NCBI RefSeq assembly: GCF_020025155.1
Contig: NZ_CP073751.1
Coordinates: 620,001 to 684,000, forward strand
DNA: 64,000 nucleotides
Source: Halopseudomonas nanhaiensis
Lineage (GTDB): Bacteria; Pseudomonadota; Gammaproteobacteria; Pseudomonadales; Pseudomonadaceae
Direction: 5' to 3'
Part shown: in pieces, positions 25,874 to 36,166 of the stretch
Position numbering within the stretch: the stretch's first letter is position 1
Layout: every line of letters begins with the position of its first letter
The notes under the pieces: model-generated
What the model was told of the DNA's origin: nothing
The model's input: the letters and a program-made list of their open reading frames with translations, nothing else
Databases searched by the model: none
Position numbers and translations under genes: made by a program

Positions 25874-25894
25874 CACCATCCCGAAAGGATGGTG
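25874..25894. other. Hairpin overlapping the left att site
   Basis: A perfect 8-bp stem CACCATCC/GGATGGTG (25874-25881 with 25887-25894) has loop CGAAA. It directly abuts the 13-bp att core. It may be the old terminator downstream of tRNA-Leu before the island inserted, although no T-run follows. Confidence 0.5.
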
Positions 25895-25907
25895 CTCGGG
25901 GGAGAAT
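25888..25907 (+). repeat. attL-like duplication of the tRNA-Leu 3' end
   Basis: The core CTCGGGGGAGAAT (25895-25907) is identical to 36086-36098 inside tRNA-Leu. The flanking GATGGTG also matches after a one-base gap (36078-36084), so the CCA end is included. The missing C would break the tRNA acceptor stem, as expected for a copy no longer under selection. Confidence 0.65.
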
Positions 25908-25962
25908 GAAACCGTTGCGTTAAGCCTATGATTATAAAGGCAATAATTGAGTTTTACTTTTT

Positions 25963-26226: not shown

Positions 26227-29200
26227 ATGAATTCGACCTTCTATATTCCGCGCAAGCTTCTGAGCGGAGACGGTACATACACCGAACGATCTTTGTTAGA
26301 AGCTTCTAACTGGATCGTTGTCCTTGCTGAACCTGGCGGTGGGAAAACCGAGCTTATGGGCAGCTTGGCCCAAAAGCTGGGGGTATCTACCGTAGCTGCA
26401 AATGTGTTCGGCCATACAGGGGCGGATACAGAGCGTTGCCCGCTTGTCATCGATGCATTCGATGAGCTAGCTAAGGTCGATCAAAGTGGCATACACAAGC
26501 TTCTCGCTCACGCTAAAAAGGCCTCCCCGACGCACGTCATCATTTCGAGCCGTTCGAGCGAGTGGGGGGATGCCGCTACCATCGCATTTCAGAATTTTCT
26601 TAGTCACCCTCCATTGGTAGTTAGGTTATGCGAATTTGACGAGGCGCAGCAGAAGGCTATCTTTGATAATCATATACACGGCGAAGACTTTGATCTATTC
26701 AAGACGCAAGTTTCGCGGTTTGATTTAGAAGCTCTCCTACCAAATCCTCAGTTTCTGAAATTGTTTGCTGATGCCTATATCGAGAGTGGAAAGGAATTTG
26801 CGGACAAGCGATCTATCTTCTCGCTCGCCGTGGAGCGCTTAGCAAAAGAGGCGAACAGAAATATCGCGAGCATCACTTCGCCACTATCAACCATGCAAAA
26901 GGTTGGCTTAGCTTCGGAAGTTTTTGCCAAGCTGTTATTGTCTGGTGCTGGCGGCGTTACTACAAACGAAGCGACGGAAGACCGGCTGTATCCACTATTA
27001 GCTTCGCTATCCAGTACCCACTTAAAGCTCAATGGTATTTTAGCCACTCGGCTTTTCAAGCCTGGCGACAAAGCAGATCAACACAGCCCGGTACACAAGA
27101 TAGTCGCTGAATATTGTGGCGCTGCCTATCTTACAAGACGGGTGGCTGACCCTGCGGATTCATTGACGCTTGCCAAGTGTCTGCCTATTATCGCCCCGAA
27201 CTCTGTTGTCCGAGACGAGCTCCGGGGCCTCCTCGGCTGGATGGCGACGTTAGGAAATAAGGCTACCCAGGCATCCATAATCGAGCTAGATCCTTATGCT
27301 GTGCTCGCCAACGGGGATCCTTCTCAGCTTGAGCAGGCATCCAAACGCTTGCTTATAAGGCGCCTCAAGGAAGTCGAAGCGCAAGATCCATATTTTCGAA
27401 GGGGCGACTATCAGCGCAGATTCAGCGTTGCAGGTTTTTTCAGCGAGGACATTGTAGGTGAGATCAAGCCTGTGCTTGAGAGTGGGAGCAACGGACACTT
27501 GCGCGAATTAATGCTCGAGCTGATTAAAGGGTCGCCTGCAGTAAAAAGTCTGGAATGCGATTTGCGTCAGATACTTCTGGCGCCCGACGAAATGCCACAC
27601 ACGCGCTGGTTAGCGTGCGATTGTTTGCTCAATCGACCGGAGAGTGATCAGACCGCGGACTTGGCGGTGCTAGTCTCCGAAGCAAGCGCTGGTTCGCTGA
27701 AGGTTGCCGCCGAGATCATTGCATCTGTAGGCCCTGAAACGATTGGGCTCGCCCATATCACGAGGTTTTTGAAAGCTTGTGCAGGCCTCTACCCTAGCCG
27801 ACAGCAGCGCCGTGAACGGGTGATAGGGGGGCGTTATTTTGTAAGACGGTTAATCGCAAAATTCGAGCTGCCGCTCCTTATTCAGATTTTGAACGAATTG
27901 ACGGGCGATATAGCCTGCAAATGCGGCCTGCGATTTTACGAGTGCGATTGTCGAAGCGGCATCAGTAAGATCGTTGGCTTACTGCTAGACCGCTATTTCG
28001 AATTAGCCGCTCCTCCCTATGATTCTCAATGCGTCTGGCAGTGGTTGCGAAACCTGCGATACGACAGGCAGCAAAGCATGGACCAGAGCAATGCTGTTAA
28101 GGTGCTCCAAGAAGATCACGCATTGCGCCAAGGGATCATCGCGCAGGTATTTAGTGCGTTGACCGATCCAGACCTTATTTTTGAGACCAAGATTCGCAGC
28201 TTCGACTGGCACTCCCACTCCGGTCTAACCTTTCGTTCCGAAGACTATCAATTTCTGACTGACTTGGCCTTCGATATCGACAATCCGGCGTTGTGGGGAA
28301 GTTTCATGGCTAGGCATAACCACCACCGAAGCAACTTTGAACGGGGGGGCGACATATTCCGGCGCCGCATGCGTGAACAAGCATCAAAGAAGCCACTGTT
28401 TATGCGTGAGTGGGTCAAACATAATAGATCGGGCGCCGCAGCTCGGAAAGAAAATAGGGGGCTGTCCTTACGACGAGCTCGACGACTGACGCGCCGCGAG
28501 AAAAAGCAGGGCGACCTCTTGGCAGCAAGCAGAAAGTATATCCAAGAGAATCGAGAGCTTATCGAAAGTGGACGGCATTGGTCTTGCTTAATTCGTTGCG
28601 CAGATCTTGTGCTGGCTCTGCCGGAAGAGATTGATAACGAGTTCGGCGACAGGAATCTTGTTCACAACGCTCTGGTTAACTGCCTCGACTATATAGCCCC
28701 GTCCATCCCCGATCTCTTGAAGCTCGCCGAGCTGCGGTGTGCTTCGCTGCACCAGGTTTCGGAAAAGATTCTATACGCGGCTTGTTTGGAGATACTTCGC
28801 GAAAAGGGTAGTTTGGAAGATGTGGATGTTGGGCTTCTGCAGGCGCTGCGTACAAATATGAATATGTACTATGACGCGGTTTCGGAGGAAGAGCGGTTAT
28901 CACTGAAGGTTGAAGTAGATAGATTGATATTCCCCGATCCTCAAAGCTCCGAAAACTATTTGCGTGAATATCTTGAGCCTCAGTTAGGAAGCTCTGAATG
29001 TAATCGTTCCGCGGTTTGGTTGCTGCAAGATGATGAAGCGTTCAGTCACCTGCGCGCTTCGTTATCAATTGACTGGCTTGAAAGATTCCCGGAACTCAAG
29101 GTGCATTCGCTGGATACTCTATTCGAAATTGCTGCTCAGCATGGTAATCGTGACCATTTGAAAAGGATAATCCGCTCTCGCTGTGAGGGCCTCTTTTCGC

Positions 29201-30249
29201 ATCTTGCGTCTCCCGAAACGGATGGAAATTTTGAGGAACGGCAAAAGTTCTGGTTTCTACGGGCGTGGTACTTCCTGAGTGACGGAACCGAAGCATGCTG
29301 GGACTGGCTTAAGTCTGACCCTGATACGTTGTTTGCGCTTAGCAGACGATCTGGCCGCATGGACTACCACGATCATCCGTATTGGCCAAAACTTACCCCA
29401 CCTATGGTCGAATCGATCTTGGATGCTTTTATAGAAAAATGGCCGAAGGTAGAGCTAGCAAGCCAATGGGGGACGGATAGCCCAAAGGAAGAGATCGCGT
29501 ACCGCTTTTTGCGAGAGATCGTATGGTTGATCGAGTCAGATGATCCTCGCGAAGCGATCCCGGTCCTTGAGCGCCTTCTTGACGATCCGCGATTTGATGA
29601 TATGCATCAGGCTCTAAAGAGTATTCATACTTCGCAACTACGCAGAAGCGCATTGAGGTATTTCGAACCACCTACACCGGCCGAAATCGTCGACCGGCTG
29701 GATCATAATTCAGTAGTAACCGTGGAAGGGTTGCGTCAAACAGTGATGCAAGAGTTGGACGACCTCCAAAAGGCTGTCGATGGTGGAGAGTTCAATACTG
29801 CTAATCGCTTCTATGAAAAAGGTGACCGGCTTGGCGAAGTTCGATGTACAGAAATCATCGCGGAGCGGCTCAGCCTAAGATTGGAGCCTCAGAATATTTC
29901 AGTGACGCCGGAGCATCAGTTGAAGGATGCAAATCGGAGTGATTTCACAGTTACGAAGGTTATCGACGGCAAGCGACGGTTGTTGGTCACCGAGGTCAAA
30001 GGGCAATGGCATGCCGAGCTGTTTACCGCTGCTTCCGCCCAGCTTCATGATCGTTATGCTATTCATCCTGACGCGGAGCAACAAGGCATATTCCTTGTGA
30101 TTTGGTTCGGTGTAGATGAGAAGGTGGCGGGTCAGAAGCAGCATGGAATTGAGAGTGCAGACGAGCTAAAAAACAGTATCAAAACTGCGATGCCGCCTCA
30201 GCTGAAAGGCCTCATTGATGTATTCATTTTGGATGTATCCAAGGCTTAA
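26227..30249 (+). CDS. NACHT/STAND ATPase with C-terminal PD-(D/E)XK-like nuclease; candidate single-gene defence system
   Basis: A 1340-residue cytoplasmic protein. The N-terminal NACHT-like NTPase begins almost at once: Walker A AEPGGGKT (34-41), Walker B LVIDAFDEL (73-81), an arginine-bearing IISSRSSEW (105-113), and a winged-helix-like HKIVAEYCGAAYL (290-302). About 900 residues of helical, HEAT-like sequence follow; they include a CxC-x6-CxC cluster (Cys564, 566, 573, 575) and a very basic stretch near residues 738-770. The C-terminus has a PD-(D/E)XK-like pattern: Asp1239, then Glu1256-V-Lys1258, then QLHDRY and VIWFGV. The model is a STAND sensor that activates a fused nuclease on infection (inference). 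The order (ATPase first, nuclease last) differs from Avs proteins, which carry N-terminal effectors. It is the only cargo of the island and is AT-rich. I do not recognise a named family for the full length. Confidence 0.8.
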   Translation: MNSTFYIPRKLLSGDGTYTERSLLEASNWIVVLAEPGGGKTELMGSLAQKLGVSTVAANVFGHTGADTERCPLVIDAFDELAKVDQSGIHKLLAHAKKASPTHVIISSRSSEWGDAATIAFQNFLSHPPLVVRLCEFDEAQQKAIFDNHIHGEDFDLFKTQVSRFDLEALLPNPQFLKLFADAYIESGKEFADKRSIFSLAVERLAKEANRNIASITSPLSTMQKVGLASEVFAKLLLSGAGGVTTNEATEDRLYPLLASLSSTHLKLNGILATRLFKPGDKADQHSPVHKIVAEYCGAAYLTRRVADPADSLTLAKCLPIIAPNSVVRDELRGLLGWMATLGNKATQASIIELDPYAVLANGDPSQLEQASKRLLIRRLKEVEAQDPYFRRGDYQRRFSVAGFFSEDIVGEIKPVLESGSNGHLRELMLELIKGSPAVKSLECDLRQILLAPDEMPHTRWLACDCLLNRPESDQTADLAVLVSEASAGSLKVAAEIIASVGPETIGLAHITRFLKACAGLYPSRQQRRERVIGGRYFVRRLIAKFELPLLIQILNELTGDIACKCGLRFYECDCRSGISKIVGLLLDRYFELAAPPYDSQCVWQWLRNLRYDRQQSMDQSNAVKVLQEDHALRQGIIAQVFSALTDPDLIFETKIRSFDWHSHSGLTFRSEDYQFLTDLAFDIDNPALWGSFMARHNHHRSNFERGGDIFRRRMREQASKKPLFMREWVKHNRSGAAARKENRGLSLRRARRLTRREKKQGDLLAASRKYIQENRELIESGRHWSCLIRCADLVLALPEEIDNEFGDRNLVHNALVNCLDYIAPSIPDLLKLAELRCASLHQVSEKILYAACLEILREKGSLEDVDVGLLQALRTNMNMYYDAVSEEERLSLKVEVDRLIFPDPQSSENYLREYLEPQLGSSECNRSAVWLLQDDEAFSHLRASLSIDWLERFPELKVHSLDTLFEIAAQHGNRDHLKRIIRSRCEGLFSHLASPETDGNFEERQKFWFLRAWYFLSDGTEACWDWLKSDPDTLFALSRRSGRMDYHDHPYWPKLTPPMVESILDAFIEKWPKVELASQWGTDSPKEEIAYRFLREIVWLIESDDPREAIPVLERLLDDPRFDDMHQALKSIHTSQLRRSALRYFEPPTPAEIVDRLDHNSVVTVEGLRQTVMQELDDLQKAVDGGEFNTANRFYEKGDRLGEVRCTEIIAERLSLRLEPQNISVTPEHQLKDANRSDFTVTKVIDGKRRLLVTEVKGQWHAELFTAASAQLHDRYAIHPDAEQQGIFLVIWFGVDEKVAGQKQHGIESADELKNSIKTAMPPQLKGLIDVFILDVSKA

Positions 30250-30457: not shown

Positions 30458-30832
30458 TTAGCCTGTCAGCATTCGGTCCGCCGACATTGGAGTACGGTCG
30501 TAAAGCTCGCGTGCCCTCCGGCCAATTTCACACAGACGGCTCGTAGGTGCGTGGCAAGCTCTGCAGCTCATCAAGTGTGTCATGTATAGGTCTCGCGCTT
30601 CCCGCCACTTCTGAGAAGCCGTGGCGGCTGTTACGGTGAAGCGTTCTTCATTGATGCGGTCATCATTAGCCTGAGCGCTTGCAGCACTAAGTTCGGCTAG
30701 AAGTTCGGCCTTGTGGGCGATGATGTGCTGACGCAACCCGACGGTAAGACGGTCTGCCGGCGAGACGCGTAGCTTTTCCGCGACGCGCTCCACCGTCAGG
30801 CCCGCCCGGTGCAAGCAGTCCAGGGCGGCCAT
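30458..30832 (-). CDS. Small island protein with TubC-like N-terminal docking domain
   Basis: A 124-residue protein. The first 50 residues (LHRAGLTVERVAEKLRVSPA ... IIAHKAELLAEL) match the TubC N-terminal docking-domain pattern that often appears in small proteins next to phage or island primases. The second half has a CxxC-type segment (MSCRACHA ... LCEIGRRARELYD) that could bind zinc. It starts 2 nt after the stop of the ATPase gene and so ends the replication operon. Its role is unknown; pairing with a replication protein is a guess. A spacer of about 200 nt separates it from the convergent cargo gene, and I see no clear terminator there. Confidence 0.7.
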   Translation of the reverse strand: MAALDCLHRAGLTVERVAEKLRVSPADRLTVGLRQHIIAHKAELLAELSAASAQANDDRINEERFTVTAATASQKWREARDLYMTHLMSCRACHAPTSRLCEIGRRARELYDRTPMSADRMLTG

Positions 30833-30834
30833 CT

Positions 30835-32484
30835 CTAAAATTCCTCAAAGTTCTGATCGGAGGGTGATTCCTTTCGTCCATTGCAGAACACCGACGGTAC
30901 TGAAGTCCTAGATGTCCTCATGTCTTGCTCATCGCCGGAATCTGCTAGGACATCAGGACGTGCAGGACTTGCTTTCGGCCTTTGTTTTTTAGGCACAATC
31001 TCCCATAGCACCGAGCCACCAATTTTACCTAAGCTCCGACACTCGATGCCAAGCTGACGCAGGGCTGGCGCCGCTCTGCGTAATGCATCAGCGAATCCCT
31101 TGGGCGTTCTCGGCCACGCCTCGCTAAAGGGTGGCCGATACTTTTCCATTTCCTGCATCAGCGACTTTGCTGGCGCTTGCTTCCCTGAAGGGTTTTGCTC
31201 CAACCATTCCAGTACGGCGCCAGCAACCGGCGACGCATCGATAGTTCGTGCAAGGCTTTCTTGTCGGCTCGCATTGAACTGATCCATGAAAGCGCTGGCT
31301 GGCTCGCCTACAGCTTCGGCTACTGCCATGCCAAGTAATGCGAACTCAACCAGGCGCGGCTTTTCCCCGGGCGGCAATCGCATCGAGGGCAGCAGCACCA
31401 GCGCTCTTGCAGCGATATCGAGTAACGCGCCGATTAGACGTCCGCGCTCCCCTTCGTACTGTTGCCATAGGTCCGTCACCTCTACGCGCTCCCGTACCAC
31501 GGGCATTTCGATACTCACGGTGCGGTCAATTAGGTCCTGCGCGGTCACCGCAGCAGATATCCCGTTGATCCCGACCGGACGCTTGACGTTTATGACGCTT
31601 TCGTCCGCATCGGTGAATAGCTTGCGCTTTGCGTACCCTCCGCCAGTGGCAATGGTGCATAGCGCGTCTTGAATTTGGGCCGGCAAATGACTGACGTTTT
31701 CATAGCAGACGATCCAGGATGCGCCAGCCCCCACAAAAACATCCTCTGCGCTTTTGGGTGCTGACCGTAGGTCGCAGGCGTTGGGGTCGATCAGTCGGCG
31801 CAGAGCGGCGTGGGTTGTACTTTTCGCCGTGCCCTGTTCGCCCATTAGCTCTATCAGCGGAAAGGGTGTATCGGGGCGCAGGCACTCAATCAGCCAGGCT
31901 AGGACCAGGAGACGCTGGTTCTCTGGGATGTTGACGATTCGCCAGAGCGGGGCGATTGATCCACCGGCAACGGGTGTTGGTAGCGGTTGCATCGCTTCGG
32001 GCCGGGTAAACCTTGCATCGGGTGACTCGATGATGGTCCAGCGTCCTGGCTCAATGCAGATGGCGCGGCTCTGCCCCGGCTCGGCAAGGTCCAGGAAGTA
32101 CCGTCCCGCAGATCCAGCCACCCGGATATGAACAGGAAGGCATTCCCCGTCGAATCTTCCCAGCCCGGCGACGGTCGATAGCGCCTCTCTGACAGACTGG
32201 TCGCGGGCTGATTTGCCTGTATCCCGGTAGAAGCTGGCAATCAGCCAATCGCGGAACTGGCGACCATCAATCCGGCGAACCTCCCCGGTTGATAGGTCTT
32301 GCGCAAACACGTCCTTATTGTCGTCGTGGAACAGGGCAACGCGGGCCTCCATGTAGGCAACGAGCTGCGATGCCTGGCTCTGCTTGTCGGCGTCCTGTTC
32401 CTGCTCGGGGGCGGCTGAATCATCGCTCGGCAACTCGGGATATTCGGCATCAGGAATCAACGGTGCGATGTCGGCGGCGCTCAT
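30835..32484 (-). CDS. Island replication P-loop ATPase/helicase-like protein
   Basis: A 549-residue ATPase of the kind found beside Toprim primases in satellites and integrative islands. Walker A is GEQGTAKST (about residues 215-223), and the Walker B region is WIVCYENVSHL (about 257-267). A later arginine segment (AQDLIDRTVSIEMP) fits a helicase or DNA-pumping ATPase. It probably unwinds DNA for the element's replication. The start at 32484 overlaps the primase stop as ATGA, showing translational coupling; the frame is open 29 codons further upstream, but those overlap the primase. The C-terminal 50 residues are low-complexity and polar. Confidence 0.78.
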   Translation of the reverse strand: MSAADIAPLIPDAEYPELPSDDSAAPEQEQDADKQSQASQLVAYMEARVALFHDDNKDVFAQDLSTGEVRRIDGRQFRDWLIASFYRDTGKSARDQSVREALSTVAGLGRFDGECLPVHIRVAGSAGRYFLDLAEPGQSRAICIEPGRWTIIESPDARFTRPEAMQPLPTPVAGGSIAPLWRIVNIPENQRLLVLAWLIECLRPDTPFPLIELMGEQGTAKSTTHAALRRLIDPNACDLRSAPKSAEDVFVGAGASWIVCYENVSHLPAQIQDALCTIATGGGYAKRKLFTDADESVINVKRPVGINGISAAVTAQDLIDRTVSIEMPVVRERVEVTDLWQQYEGERGRLIGALLDIAARALVLLPSMRLPPGEKPRLVEFALLGMAVAEAVGEPASAFMDQFNASRQESLARTIDASPVAGAVLEWLEQNPSGKQAPAKSLMQEMEKYRPPFSEAWPRTPKGFADALRRAAPALRQLGIECRSLGKIGGSVLWEIVPKKQRPKASPARPDVLADSGDEQDMRTSRTSVPSVFCNGRKESPSDQNFEEF

Positions 32485-33398
32485 TGTGCGGACCTCCAGT
32501 TGGCAAGGTCGTTGAAGTCGGTCAGGTCCAGCGGTTCGGCCCCTGCCCAGGGTGGTAAGATCAGGCCACAACCAAGCGCGGCGGCGGCTTGGGTTGCTGC
32601 GGTACGTCCGGGGTTGCCTGCGGTCTGGCGGTCATCATCCCCCGCGACAATCAATTTGCTGTCCGGGTATTGCCGCTGTAGCTCTCGGCCTACTGCCAGA
32701 AGGTTGCCCGCATTCATGGCGCAGGCCACGGTGGCCCCGGTTTCAGCGTGGATCGTTGCGCCAGTTGCCCAGCCTTCGCAAAGGTAAAGCGGTTGGCCTG
32801 GCTCTAATGTGCCTAAGGGCGAATAGCAGCCCTTTACCCGGCCACCGGGCAGGAATCGCTTTGTCCCGTCTATACCGATGCGTTGAAGATTGGCTAGCTG
32901 ACCGTTGCTGTATAGCGGTACAAACAGAACCCCGTCACGCTGACGCAGGCGATACGCTGCGACGCGCTTTTGGATCAGATAAGGGTGATGTGGATCAGCG
33001 GGCAGTGATGCGTCCCAAAGGCGGCTGGTATGGATTGCTGCGGCCAGGTGTCGCCTTGCTAGGTCGGCCTCTCGCTGGAGTCTTGCCCGCTCGGATCGCT
33101 GACGCAAAAGCTCCGCCTCTAACGGGTCGGCGAGGTTTCGATTGCTCCAGGTGTGCGTAGTGCCAGCTCTCCAGCTCCCGAACTTACCAGACGGGATGCC
33201 TTCCGGGTAAAGGACGTACCAGCCATTACGGCGGCCGGGCTTGTCGCCGGGTACGTCGAAACGGTGGATTGCGCCGTCTGCCTTCGGAATCAAGTCCAGC
33301 TGCCCGAACACTTCCTGCAACGCCTCATGGAAAGCTAGCACTGCCGAATTTTGGCAAGCCGATCCCGCCAACGCCTTCGCGCTGTTTTGAAATCTCAT
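32481..33398 (-). CDS. Toprim-domain primase of phage/plasmid type
   Basis: A 305-residue primase-like protein. An N-terminal region with GDKPGRRNGWYVLY (resembling the DUF5906/zinc-ribbon substitute of short primases) precedes a Toprim domain with its glutamate in LYLCEGWATG (Glu208) and the acidic cluster VAGDDDRQTAG (Asp254-256). It should make RNA primers for the excised element. AGAGGG precedes the ATG at 33398. The gene overlaps the downstream ATPase gene by four bases. It lacks a fused helicase, unlike the P4 alpha protein, so the function appears split over two genes. Confidence 0.8.
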   Translation of the reverse strand: MRFQNSAKALAGSACQNSAVLAFHEALQEVFGQLDLIPKADGAIHRFDVPGDKPGRRNGWYVLYPEGIPSGKFGSWRAGTTHTWSNRNLADPLEAELLRQRSERARLQREADLARRHLAAAIHTSRLWDASLPADPHHPYLIQKRVAAYRLRQRDGVLFVPLYSNGQLANLQRIGIDGTKRFLPGGRVKGCYSPLGTLEPGQPLYLCEGWATGATIHAETGATVACAMNAGNLLAVGRELQRQYPDSKLIVAGDDDRQTAGNPGRTAATQAAAALGCGLILPPWAGAEPLDLTDFNDLANWRSAQ

Positions 33399-33601: not shown

Positions 33602-33814
33602 TTATGCAACGTCTCCCCGCTGACCGGCCAGCTTGTCACACCAGGCCAGGATTTCAGATTCAACCCATGCCACAGACTTGGGGCCGAGCGTGACTTGGGC
33701 TGGAAATGTACCGGCGGCAATGCGCCTGTAAATCTCGGAGGTGGAAAGGCTAGTGTATGCCTTCACTTCGGTGAGCTTGATGAAGCGCCGGGTAGGTGTG
33801 GTTTGCATGGCCAT
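33602..33814 (-). CDS. AlpA-family helix-turn-helix regulator
   Basis: A 70-residue excisionase-like DNA-binding protein. The core RFIKLTEVKAYTSLSTSEIYRRIAAGTFPAQVTLGPKSVAWVESEI (split as RFIKLTEV..., STSEIYRRI and WVESEILAWC) follows the AlpA/MerR-like winged-helix pattern with the typical length. GAGGAGA lies 8 nt before the ATG. In P4-like elements AlpA-type proteins switch on the integrase or help excision. It heads the replication operon here. Confidence 0.85.
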   Translation of the reverse strand: MAMQTTPTRRFIKLTEVKAYTSLSTSEIYRRIAAGTFPAQVTLGPKSVAWVESEILAWCDKLAGQRGDVA

Positions 33815-33866: not shown

Positions 33867-33920
33867 GGCGACGGTTCCGTCGCCGGGTAAAAGCAACCTT
33901 AGTTAGCTGCGCTTTTACCC
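33867..33920. promoter_or_regulatory. Two adjacent inverted repeats upstream of alpA
   Basis: GGCGACGG-TT-CCGTCGCC (33867-33884) is followed directly by GGGTAAAAGC-N16-GCTTTTACCC (33885-33920). They fill the gap between the 223-residue gene and alpA, and the second overlaps that gene's stop codon. They could be operator sites or a transcript end; no T-run supports an intrinsic terminator. Confidence 0.5.
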
Positions 33921-34586
33921 CCCCAACTCTCTGCGTTGCTTTGCGACGGAGCTGACAATTCGCTCGGCTTCTCTGATGTCCTCAATCGTATGAATATGCG
34001 ATGCCGACAGGAGGCCACAAGCGTCCCTGATGGCTTGGCGTTTGACGCCGCGTTTGGAAGGCTCAGGGTGATGCTCTAATAGGTATGTAATTATGTCCGC
34101 CAACAGCTCGCGTCTATCCCAGCCTGGCTTTCTGCCGGTTATCCATTTTCGTCCCGCAAGTTCTCGCTGCGCGCGGGTAAGGGCCGCAAGTATGCGATGG
34201 CCCGACTGATTATGCTCCCGTACGAGGTCTTCGAACGCGCAACTCCATGCGGAGTGAGTGATCTGGTCCAGCTCCGCGACAAGCCCCGGGGGAAGGTGGT
34301 TGAGCATCAGCTCGGCTTGTTCCTGCTTTTTTATCGTTTCGTCTGCCAGCGCTAGCTCTTCAGCAGGTGACGGGGAAGCATCAGCCATGGCCCGCTGGCC
34401 TTTATATCTACCGAGTTGCAACCCAAGCCATTCTGGGAGGTCATCGCCATACTTGTCGGTCAGGGCGGTGGCCAGCTTGTTTGCTTCTGGAGAGAGATGC
34501 GTATCAAGGGGGCCGGAGTTACGCCAATCAAGGCTAGTCCTCTCGCGGACTGGAAGAGCCTTAGTTCGGTTACCTTTTATAGCCAT
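33915..34586 (-). CDS. Hypothetical island protein
   Basis: A 223-residue soluble, charged, mostly helical protein I do not recognise. The N-terminus is basic (MAIKGNRTKALPVRERTSLDW). The middle has an acidic ELALADETIKKQEQAEL helix. The C-terminal part (GWDRRELLADIITYLLEHHPEPSKRGVKRQAIRDACG, as separate helices) could bind nucleic acid. I chose the ATG at 34586 because GGAGGA lies 6 nt upstream; the frame is open another 11 codons. It lies between the integrase and alpA in the same orientation. Confidence 0.65.
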   Translation of the reverse strand: MAIKGNRTKALPVRERTSLDWRNSGPLDTHLSPEANKLATALTDKYGDDLPEWLGLQLGRYKGQRAMADASPSPAEELALADETIKKQEQAELMLNHLPPGLVAELDQITHSAWSCAFEDLVREHNQSGHRILAALTRAQRELAGRKWITGRKPGWDRRELLADIITYLLEHHPEPSKRGVKRQAIRDACGLLSASHIHTIEDIREAERIVSSVAKQRRELGG

Positions 34587-34654
34587 GGGATTTCCTCCAA
34601 ATCTTCTACGTTGGCCCACCTAGTCTTGGTTCCCTCCAAATCAGTCGGACTGCT

Positions 34655-35869
34655 TTAACCGTGAGCTCTCTGTTTGATGGTCACGATGTTGTTACGCTCA
34701 CACGCTGCGTCTATCGAATCCGCCCAGGCTTGCATCATCCCCCGACGTTGCTCCAGATAGTTGGCATGGTTGTAGGTGTCCCTGATGCCGTCGCTGTCAC
34801 CATGAGCAAGCTGGCGCTCGATCCAGTCTCGGTTGAAGCCTAGACCGTTTAGCTCGGTGCTCAATAGATGTCGGAATCCGTGGCCGGTCTGCCGGCCTTC
34901 ATACCCCATCACCCTTAGTGCCTTGTTGATGGTGTTCTCGCTCATGGGTCTGGAGCTGTCATTCTGGCCCGGGAAGACCAGCCGATAGGCGCCAGTGATC
35001 TCCTTGAGCTCGCGCAGGATCGCAACCGCCTGCGCAGGTAGTGGCACCACATGCGAACGTCGAGCCTTCATGCGCTCCTTTGGAATAGTCCAGGTGGCGG
35101 CGTCAAGATCGAACTCAGCCCAAGGTGCGGCGCGAAGCTCGCCGGGGCGAACGGCGGTCAGTAGTAACAAGCGAATGGCTAAGCGGGTCAGCGTGTTCAG
35201 CCGGGTCGTGTCGATCCTGGCCAGCAACTCAGGCAGTTCGGAAAACGAGACGTTCGGATGGTGACGTCTGTCTTTCGGCGGGGCGGCTACGACGTCCAGG
35301 TCAGTGGCTGGGTTGGCTTCCACTACGCCAGATGCAAGTCCGAATCTAAATATCTGGTGCAACCACTGGCGAACCTTCCTTGCTACGTTCAGTGCGCCCC
35401 TGGCTTCTACCGTGCGTACCAGTTCTACTAGCTCGGGCCGAGTTACCGCTCTCACCTGACGGGAGCCTATGGTGGGTAGCAGATCTCGTTCGAGATAGTG
35501 TAGGGCTTTGGATCGCGTACTTTCCGCCCAGCGAGGAGCGTTGTATTCAAACCATTCGCGAGCCAGTACCTCAAAGGTGATTCCTTCGAGCTTGTTGGCA
35601 ATTTTCGTGGCTTTCTTCTGCTCACTGGGGTCTATGCCCTCGCTGAGCGTCTGTCGAGCCGCGTCACGTCTTTGGCGTGCCTTTAGGAGCGTCACTGCCG
35701 GGTAAGCCCCCAGCGCCATCATCTTCGCCTTACCGGCAAAGCGATAGCGGTAGCGCCATAGCTTCGATCCTGACGGGGTCACTTCGAGGCACAAACCGTT
35801 GGCGTCGGCTAGGCGATAAATCTTCGTCTTCGGCTTCGCCGTGCGAATGGCGCTGTCGGTTAAGGCCAA
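34655..35869 (-). CDS. P4-type tyrosine recombinase integrase
   Basis: A site-specific recombinase of about 404 residues. The N-terminal DUF4102 arm-binding domain (LALTDSAIRTAKPKTKIYRLAD) precedes a core-binding domain and the catalytic domain. Numbered from the upstream ATG, the catalytic residues are Arg250 (TAVRPGELR), His339-x-x-Arg342 (GHGFRH), His365 (QLAHG) and the nucleophile Tyr375 (RDTYNHA). I prefer the TTG at 35869 as start: it gives the family's usual MALTD-like beginning and has AGGGGG about 6 nt upstream. An ATG at 35896 is the alternative. It lies next to tRNA-Leu, its target site, and probably binds the ATCTACTCAC repeats. Confidence 0.92.
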   Translation of the reverse strand: MALTDSAIRTAKPKTKIYRLADANGLCLEVTPSGSKLWRYRYRFAGKAKMMALGAYPAVTLLKARQRRDAARQTLSEGIDPSEQKKATKIANKLEGITFEVLAREWFEYNAPRWAESTRSKALHYLERDLLPTIGSRQVRAVTRPELVELVRTVEARGALNVARKVRQWLHQIFRFGLASGVVEANPATDLDVVAAPPKDRRHHPNVSFSELPELLARIDTTRLNTLTRLAIRLLLLTAVRPGELRAAPWAEFDLDAATWTIPKERMKARRSHVVPLPAQAVAILRELKEITGAYRLVFPGQNDSSRPMSENTINKALRVMGYEGRQTGHGFRHLLSTELNGLGFNRDWIERQLAHGDSDGIRDTYNHANYLEQRRGMMQAWADSIDAACERNNIVTIKQRAHG

Positions 35870-35917
35870 ATCCGAGCCCCCTGTAAGGTGCGCCATCCGT
35901 AATCATCAGAGACGGCT

Positions 35918-36077: not shown

Positions 36078-36098
36078 GATGGTGCCTCGGGGGAGAAT
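36078..36098 (+). repeat. attR core inside tRNA-Leu
   Basis: GATGGTGC plus CTCGGGGGAGAAT covers the CCA end, the acceptor strand and the beginning of the T-arm of tRNA-Leu. It is the intact partner of the copy at 25888-25907. Confidence 0.65.
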
Positions 36099-36166
36099 CG
36101 AACTCCCACTCTGTCACCAGAAACGGATTTTGAATCCGCCGCGTCTACCAATTCCGCCACCGAGGC
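36080..36166 (-). tRNA. tRNA-Leu (anticodon CAA)
   Basis: An 87-nt tRNA with encoded CCA. The acceptor arms GCCTCGG and CCGAGGC pair over seven bases. The anticodon stem GCGGA/TCCGT encloses the loop TTCAAAA, giving anticodon CAA (reads UUG). A long variable arm of class II type (around TTTCTGGTGACAGAG) and the T-loop GTTCGATTC are present. It lies just upstream of queA on the opposite strand and serves as the island's insertion site. Confidence 0.97.

Follow-up and report, generated by a model that had tools for sequence, protein, structure and literature searches.

An EruA-family NACHT protein with a predicted C-terminal nuclease on a tRNA-borne island of Halopseudomonas nanhaiensis

According to PMC12169576, bacterial NACHT proteins carry an effector at the N-terminus, a central NACHT module and a sensor at the C-terminus. 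Clade 6 (bNACHT25 and bNACHT32) is described as joining a NACHT switch to an N-terminal PD-(D/E)XK nuclease, and the PD-(D/E)XK site of bNACHT25 as being needed for defence, with degradation of DNA on infection (PMC12169576). Here we describe a single protein, encoded in a 64,000-nucleotide stretch of the Halopseudomonas nanhaiensis genome (the window), that likewise appears to combine a NACHT switch with a PD-(D/E)XK nuclease, but in which the nuclease lies at the C-terminus rather than, as in bNACHT25/32, at the N-terminus.

Family membership of the window protein

The gene lies at 26227..30249 on the forward strand, stop codon included; it opens with ATG, runs for 1340 codons and is a genuine gene. 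M1 is invariant in one alignment of relatives (A1, 48 rows) and kept in at least 90% of another (A4, 50 rows). Of 46 relatives, 40 also have one uninterrupted near-full-length open reading frame. The frame reported in the first-pass annotation was borne out.

An NCBIfam search with the protein returned NF058535, "NACHT domain-containing antiphage protein EruA", scoring 1415 bits where the cut-off is 1000 (the genome search gave 1414.7 bits), with residues 14-1338 aligned to positions 11-1318 of a 1318-position profile. By this sequence score, the sole criterion tested, the protein belongs to the EruA family. It had been put forward as a candidate new antiphage protein, and that claim falls, because an EruA antiphage equivalog is already in NCBIfam and the protein is well over its curated cut-off. 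As the experimental basis of the naming was not found in the literature searched (no EruA or HyoA antiphage paper appeared among the matches listed), we take the word "antiphage" as NCBI's curated name together with context. The name EruA is reportedly also in use for a SlyA-type regulator of E. coli (PMC12839154). HyoA (NF058534) is a related family, to which the window protein does not belong: it scores 57.4 bits against a cut-off of 1200 and was unlisted for HyoA in the NCBIfam search. One relative, L084, reaches 1602 bits with the HyoA model and 165 with that of EruA, and in this row, the only HyoA row tested, the nuclease residues are common to both families.

With the Pfam NACHT profile, the protein scored a sub-threshold 20.8 bits (threshold 26.7), and a NACHT search of the whole genome returned nothing from the genome of the window at the search threshold. 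PADLOC 2023 gave no family match at E values up to 10, so membership of Avs was rejected; Avs3, Avs4 and Avs5 matched the protein more weakly than did the animal inflammasome sensors NLRC4 and NLRP3, and the effector order of Avs differs from the effector-last order seen here. Of three sequence searches of the PDB, one was empty, another gave two irrelevant matches, and the third gave 21 weak matches, mainly to AAA-type ATPases, with one to NLRP2 at 0.3.

NACHT array, helical region and C-terminal domain

Conservation was read from an alignment of 58 rows, i.e., the window protein and 57 relatives, comprising near-full-length open reading frames and one C-terminal fragment (L075). Relatives with interrupted or incomplete frames (L023, L045, L054, L056, L059, L066, L068 and L073) were left out, as were L069, which comes from the same species as L050, and genome matches that were weak or partial (L078-L080, L082, L083 and L085-L094). 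Fold searches covered residues 1-439 and 1163-1340, and barely touched the helical middle.

Residues 1-416 (26227..27474, forward strand) make up a predicted NLR-type NACHT array with NTPase, helical and winged-helix parts. Walker A (AEPGGGKT, residues 34-41, 26326..26349), Walker B (LVIDAFDEL, residues 73-81, 26443..26469) and the winged-helix HxxxxEY motif (residues 290-296, 27094..27114; H290, E295 and Y296), all on the forward strand, lie where the first-pass annotation had placed them. K40, D76, D79, E80, R109, H290 and E295 occur without exception in the 57 rows covering these positions. A Walker A motif, a DxxDE Walker B, a winged helix with a conserved His and a predicted NLR fold are thus all found in this part, and the earlier call of a NACHT domain is supported by both fold and motifs.

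At the opposite end, residues ~1163-1340 (29713..30246, forward strand) form a predicted PD-(D/E)XK nuclease domain. The catalytic-type residues D1239, E1256 and K1258 (29941..30000, forward strand) occupy the expected core positions in the predicted model, strand 2 carrying the D and strand 3 the ExK. They are found in 58 of 58 rows, as are E1204, E1229, R1237, Q1272, Y1277 and W1293. These residues, together with QLHDRY (1272-1277) and VIWFG (1291-1295), are again at the positions first reported. In a fold search with the model, the closest folds were type II restriction enzymes, so that the structural check upheld a nuclease at this end; conservation and the model support a BamHI-like PD-(D/E)XK domain whose active-site signature is intact. 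This protein departs from the standard order of effector, NACHT and sensor. Its NACHT alignment starts at residue 1, which leaves no space for an effector at the N-terminus, and the effector-last order originally proposed agrees with a predicted NACHT fold that opens the protein and a nuclease that ends it.

Between the array and the nuclease the model has a helical region of about 725 residues (417-1143; 27475..29655, forward strand), which is probably the sensor. The helical middle noted at the outset is seen in the model, where residues ~291-1143 are helical. Here the protein differs from NLRC4 and NLRP3: after the array it is predicted to be helical without leucine-rich-repeat strands, and the nuclease comes at the end. 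Within this region is a CxC-x6-CxC motif (residues 564-575; 27916..27951, forward strand), a possible metal site, each Cys of which is kept in 49 or 50 of the 58 rows. The motif is not covered by the L075 fragment, and is missing from the eight full-length rows that are most distant (L062-L065, L067, L077, L081 and L084). Unlike the window protein, L062 (1296 bits) and L077 (1318 bits) are over the EruA cut-off without it.

Genomic setting and distribution

The gene sits on an island next to an intact tRNA-Leu(CAA) gene, the integration target (36080..36166, reverse strand; found with ARAGORN). At the left end of the island is a degenerate att copy of the tRNA 3' end (25888..25910), whose local alignment scored 36, whereas 300 single-base shuffles of the left region gave 25 at most. 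Reading from the tRNA, the island carries a tyrosine integrase (34655..35896, reverse strand; PF00589, 7.2e-23; PF13356, 1.1e-27), a 234-residue open reading frame, an AlpA-type regulator of 70 residues (33602..33814, reverse strand; PF05930, 1.9e-18), a primase-like Toprim protein (32481..33398, reverse strand; PF13362, 6.1e-10; phrog_2249 DNA primase, 2.9e-61), frames of 578 and 124 residues, and then EruA, which runs opposite to the other island genes. The 578-residue frame (30835..32571, reverse strand) had no Pfam, NCBIfam or PHROG match; a P-loop-like GEQGTAKST in its sequence suggests a possible replication ATPase. The 124-residue frame had a sub-threshold match to TubC_N. The G+C content of EruA is ~50%, against ~61% in the flanks.

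In one congener (G011) the empty site was read directly: the match to an Lnb-type protein stops 51 bases short of the same tRNA, and the interval is empty. The gap from the Lnb-type gene to the tRNA is at most about 110 bases in 10 of the 36 other congeners (G011 included), and in the other 26 that gene lies somewhere else, gives a weak match or is missing. The integrase adjoining the tRNA, the att copy and the empty sites in congeners all support the tRNA-borne island of the first-pass annotation. Its description of EruA as the sole cargo holds for recognisable cargo, but not for the three frames of 124, 234 and 578 residues, which had no family match over a cut-off.

The family is sparse. 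Over the EruA cut-off there was one hit in 58 related genomes (that of the window itself, with none in the 36 other congeners) and three in 369 genomes of the class, the window's own included. One genome of the class, G258, encodes a protein identical to that of L018. A scan of genome contigs gave the 46 relatives mentioned above; besides the 40 uninterrupted ones there were four interrupted (L023, L045, L052 and L056) and two contig-end fragments (L054 and L059). One relative counted as near full length, L038, is cut off at residue 1332 by the end of its contig. Relatives were found in 29 of 72,556 plasmid records, five covering at least 80%, and some are on conjugative plasmids; at least seven loci are on viral contigs, and a single one of 50,697 phage records matched, an unannotated scaffold covering 49%. 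Searches of complete E. coli genomes with the DNA of three relatives (L015, L029 and L051) gave no match. The distribution is therefore patchy, on islands, plasmids and viral contigs, and not that of a universal housekeeping gene.

A tRNA or tmRNA lies in the flanks of 10 of the 46 genome loci, which, judged informally, is close to ordinary tRNA density, and tRNA islands were rejected as the typical home of the family. A relative of the window integrase is within reach of the flanks in 4 of the 46; both features occur together in L029, L035 and L051, the last sharing the tRNA-Leu(CAA) target. In a quick tree, the window protein belongs to a supported group of 27 rows (Pseudomonadota 19, Cyanobacteriota 2, Thermodesulfobacteriota 2, Kiritimatiellota 1, ungrouped 3), phylum labels being those of record titles, and bins can hold foreign contigs. 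The five rows of the other three phyla cluster together (support 85, below the starred level), so that the tree needs few changes of phylum; the mixture fits horizontal spread without proving it.

Candidate mechanism and what may be sensed

We consider that EruA is an NLR-like antiphage protein that is encoded by one gene and has the effector at its far end, and in which a switch, a helical region and a nuclease are carried together on a tRNA island; we put the probability of this at about 80%. Its parts, their conservation and their predicted folds are supported by the alignment and the model. The NACHT array of NLRs is a nucleotide-gated assembly switch, and that of EruA, in keeping with its predicted fold, may be one too. 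The helical region (residues 417-1143) would keep the switch off until it bound something made by the phage or a host protein that the phage had disturbed; nucleotide exchange would then lead to assembly, and the clustered C-terminal domains would cleave DNA and halt the infection, probably at the expense of the cell. That sensing releases a DNA-cleaving domain seems the most likely mechanism, and the outcome may be abortive infection by DNA degradation; the nearest tested analogue is bNACHT25. The first-pass annotation was thus partly supported: what it observed is confirmed, and its reading as defence was right in kind, although the claim of novelty was wrong.

The last step could instead be direct restriction of phage DNA by a switch-gated restriction enzyme that spares the cell, and the nearest folds are indeed type II restriction enzymes. 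We think this unlikely, though its odds overlap with those of the preferred reading because the anatomy is common to both and only the last step differs. No recurrent modification partner adjoins EruA among the matches listed, and a nuclease without a partner better fits triggered, indiscriminate cutting such as PMC12169576 describes for bNACHT25. Nor was there an obligate partner gene of any kind: among the matches listed, no Pfam family occurred in more than 5 of 150 adjacent open reading frames. The neighbour matches listed included type I restriction (3), Avs2 (2) and MADS (2), which are raw, uncontrolled counts and not a claim of enrichment; they came from mechanically called frames of at least 100 residues at 40 loci, with 25 of 256 and 25 of 146 families listed. 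A count of two may represent one case, because two Morganella morganii loci (L044 and L058) have near-identical layouts.

It is a good deal more doubtful that EruA uses the same sensor and nuclease to guard the element that carries it, and not the host, against plasmids, satellites or phages competing within the same cell. The integrase, AlpA and primase of the island, and the relatives on conjugative plasmids and viral contigs, would suit such a role, but a related integrase was within flank reach at just those four genome loci, and the curated family name reads antiphage. Some STAND proteins are regulators, and four of the 46 relatives are interrupted; a regulator, or a gene that takes no part in defence, is nevertheless very improbable given that the window copy is intact, that the nuclease and switch residues are invariant in all near-full-length rows covering them, and that the family is sporadic and mobile.

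Under the preferred reading of EruA as an antiphage protein, part of the helical region may indicate what is sensed. Residues ~762-1142 (28510..29652, forward strand) match proteins that stand alone elsewhere (hhalign 99.3%, E 3.5e-20, 357 columns), compared with 0.1-0.5% for three other parts of EruA. Six examples are stop-to-stop open frames of 381 to 590 residues without NACHT or nuclease. Two were scanned; they matched the NCBIfam EruA profile at 1.3e-51 and 1.1e-35, and had no Pfam match. The stand-alone proteins come from other genomes of the window's class. In one genus the neighbours of the gene are conserved between two genomes (G100 and G241) and kept in part in a third (G606, where the match is cut by a contig end), so the gene looks like a resident one; a fourth genome of that genus (G348) had no stand-alone match. 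Plant NLRs sense attack through integrated decoys. The homology with the stand-alone protein raises a long-shot idea, that EruA is an NLR with an integrated host-like domain, sensing phage by means of a cell protein of which it contains its own copy; the protein copied could be one that phages attack or remodel, and sensing could then fire the C-terminal restriction-type nuclease.

EruA apparently joins an inflammasome-type switch to a restriction-type nuclease beyond the sensor, the reverse of the tripartite order given for bacterial NACHT proteins in PMC12169576. If its stand-alone relatives represent the ancestral or guarded protein, they would offer a direct way of finding out what EruA senses; for bacterial NLRs, this is the difficult question.

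Cysteine motif and interrupted genes

Within the helical region of EruA, the NACHT-nuclease protein of the island, the alignment of the window protein with 57 relatives revealed a CxC-x6-CxC motif (27916-27951), which is possibly a metal site. Each of its cysteines is present in 49 or 50 of the 58 rows, and all are missing from the eight most distant full-length rows. Among the 46 relatives found by scanning genome contigs, four are interrupted (loci L023, L045, L052 and L056); the arrangement of their ORFs points to frame breaks or insertions as the cause.

Related proteins

Stand-alone proteins homologous to EruA residues ~762-1142 occur at six loci: L083 (1474-2712), L085, L086, L087, L088 (1501-2631, minus strand) and L089. 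Their open frames span 381-590 residues and contain neither NACHT nor nuclease, and the neighbours of the gene are conserved within one genus. NCBIfam also names a related family of NACHT antiphage proteins, HyoA (NF058534), to which the proteins at L084 and L119-L122 belong; in a profile search, 4 of 200 genomes of the phylum exceeded its cut-off.

The island and its tRNA target

Three island ORFs, of 124 aa (30458-30832), 578 aa (30835-32571) and 234 aa (33915-34619), gave no above-cut-off family match in Pfam, NCBIfam or PHROG. A distant EruA (41% identity) is encoded in Erwinia rhapontici (L051, 17396-18908), with a related integrase and a tRNA-Leu(CAA) nearby, i.e., the same tRNA target as that of the window island.
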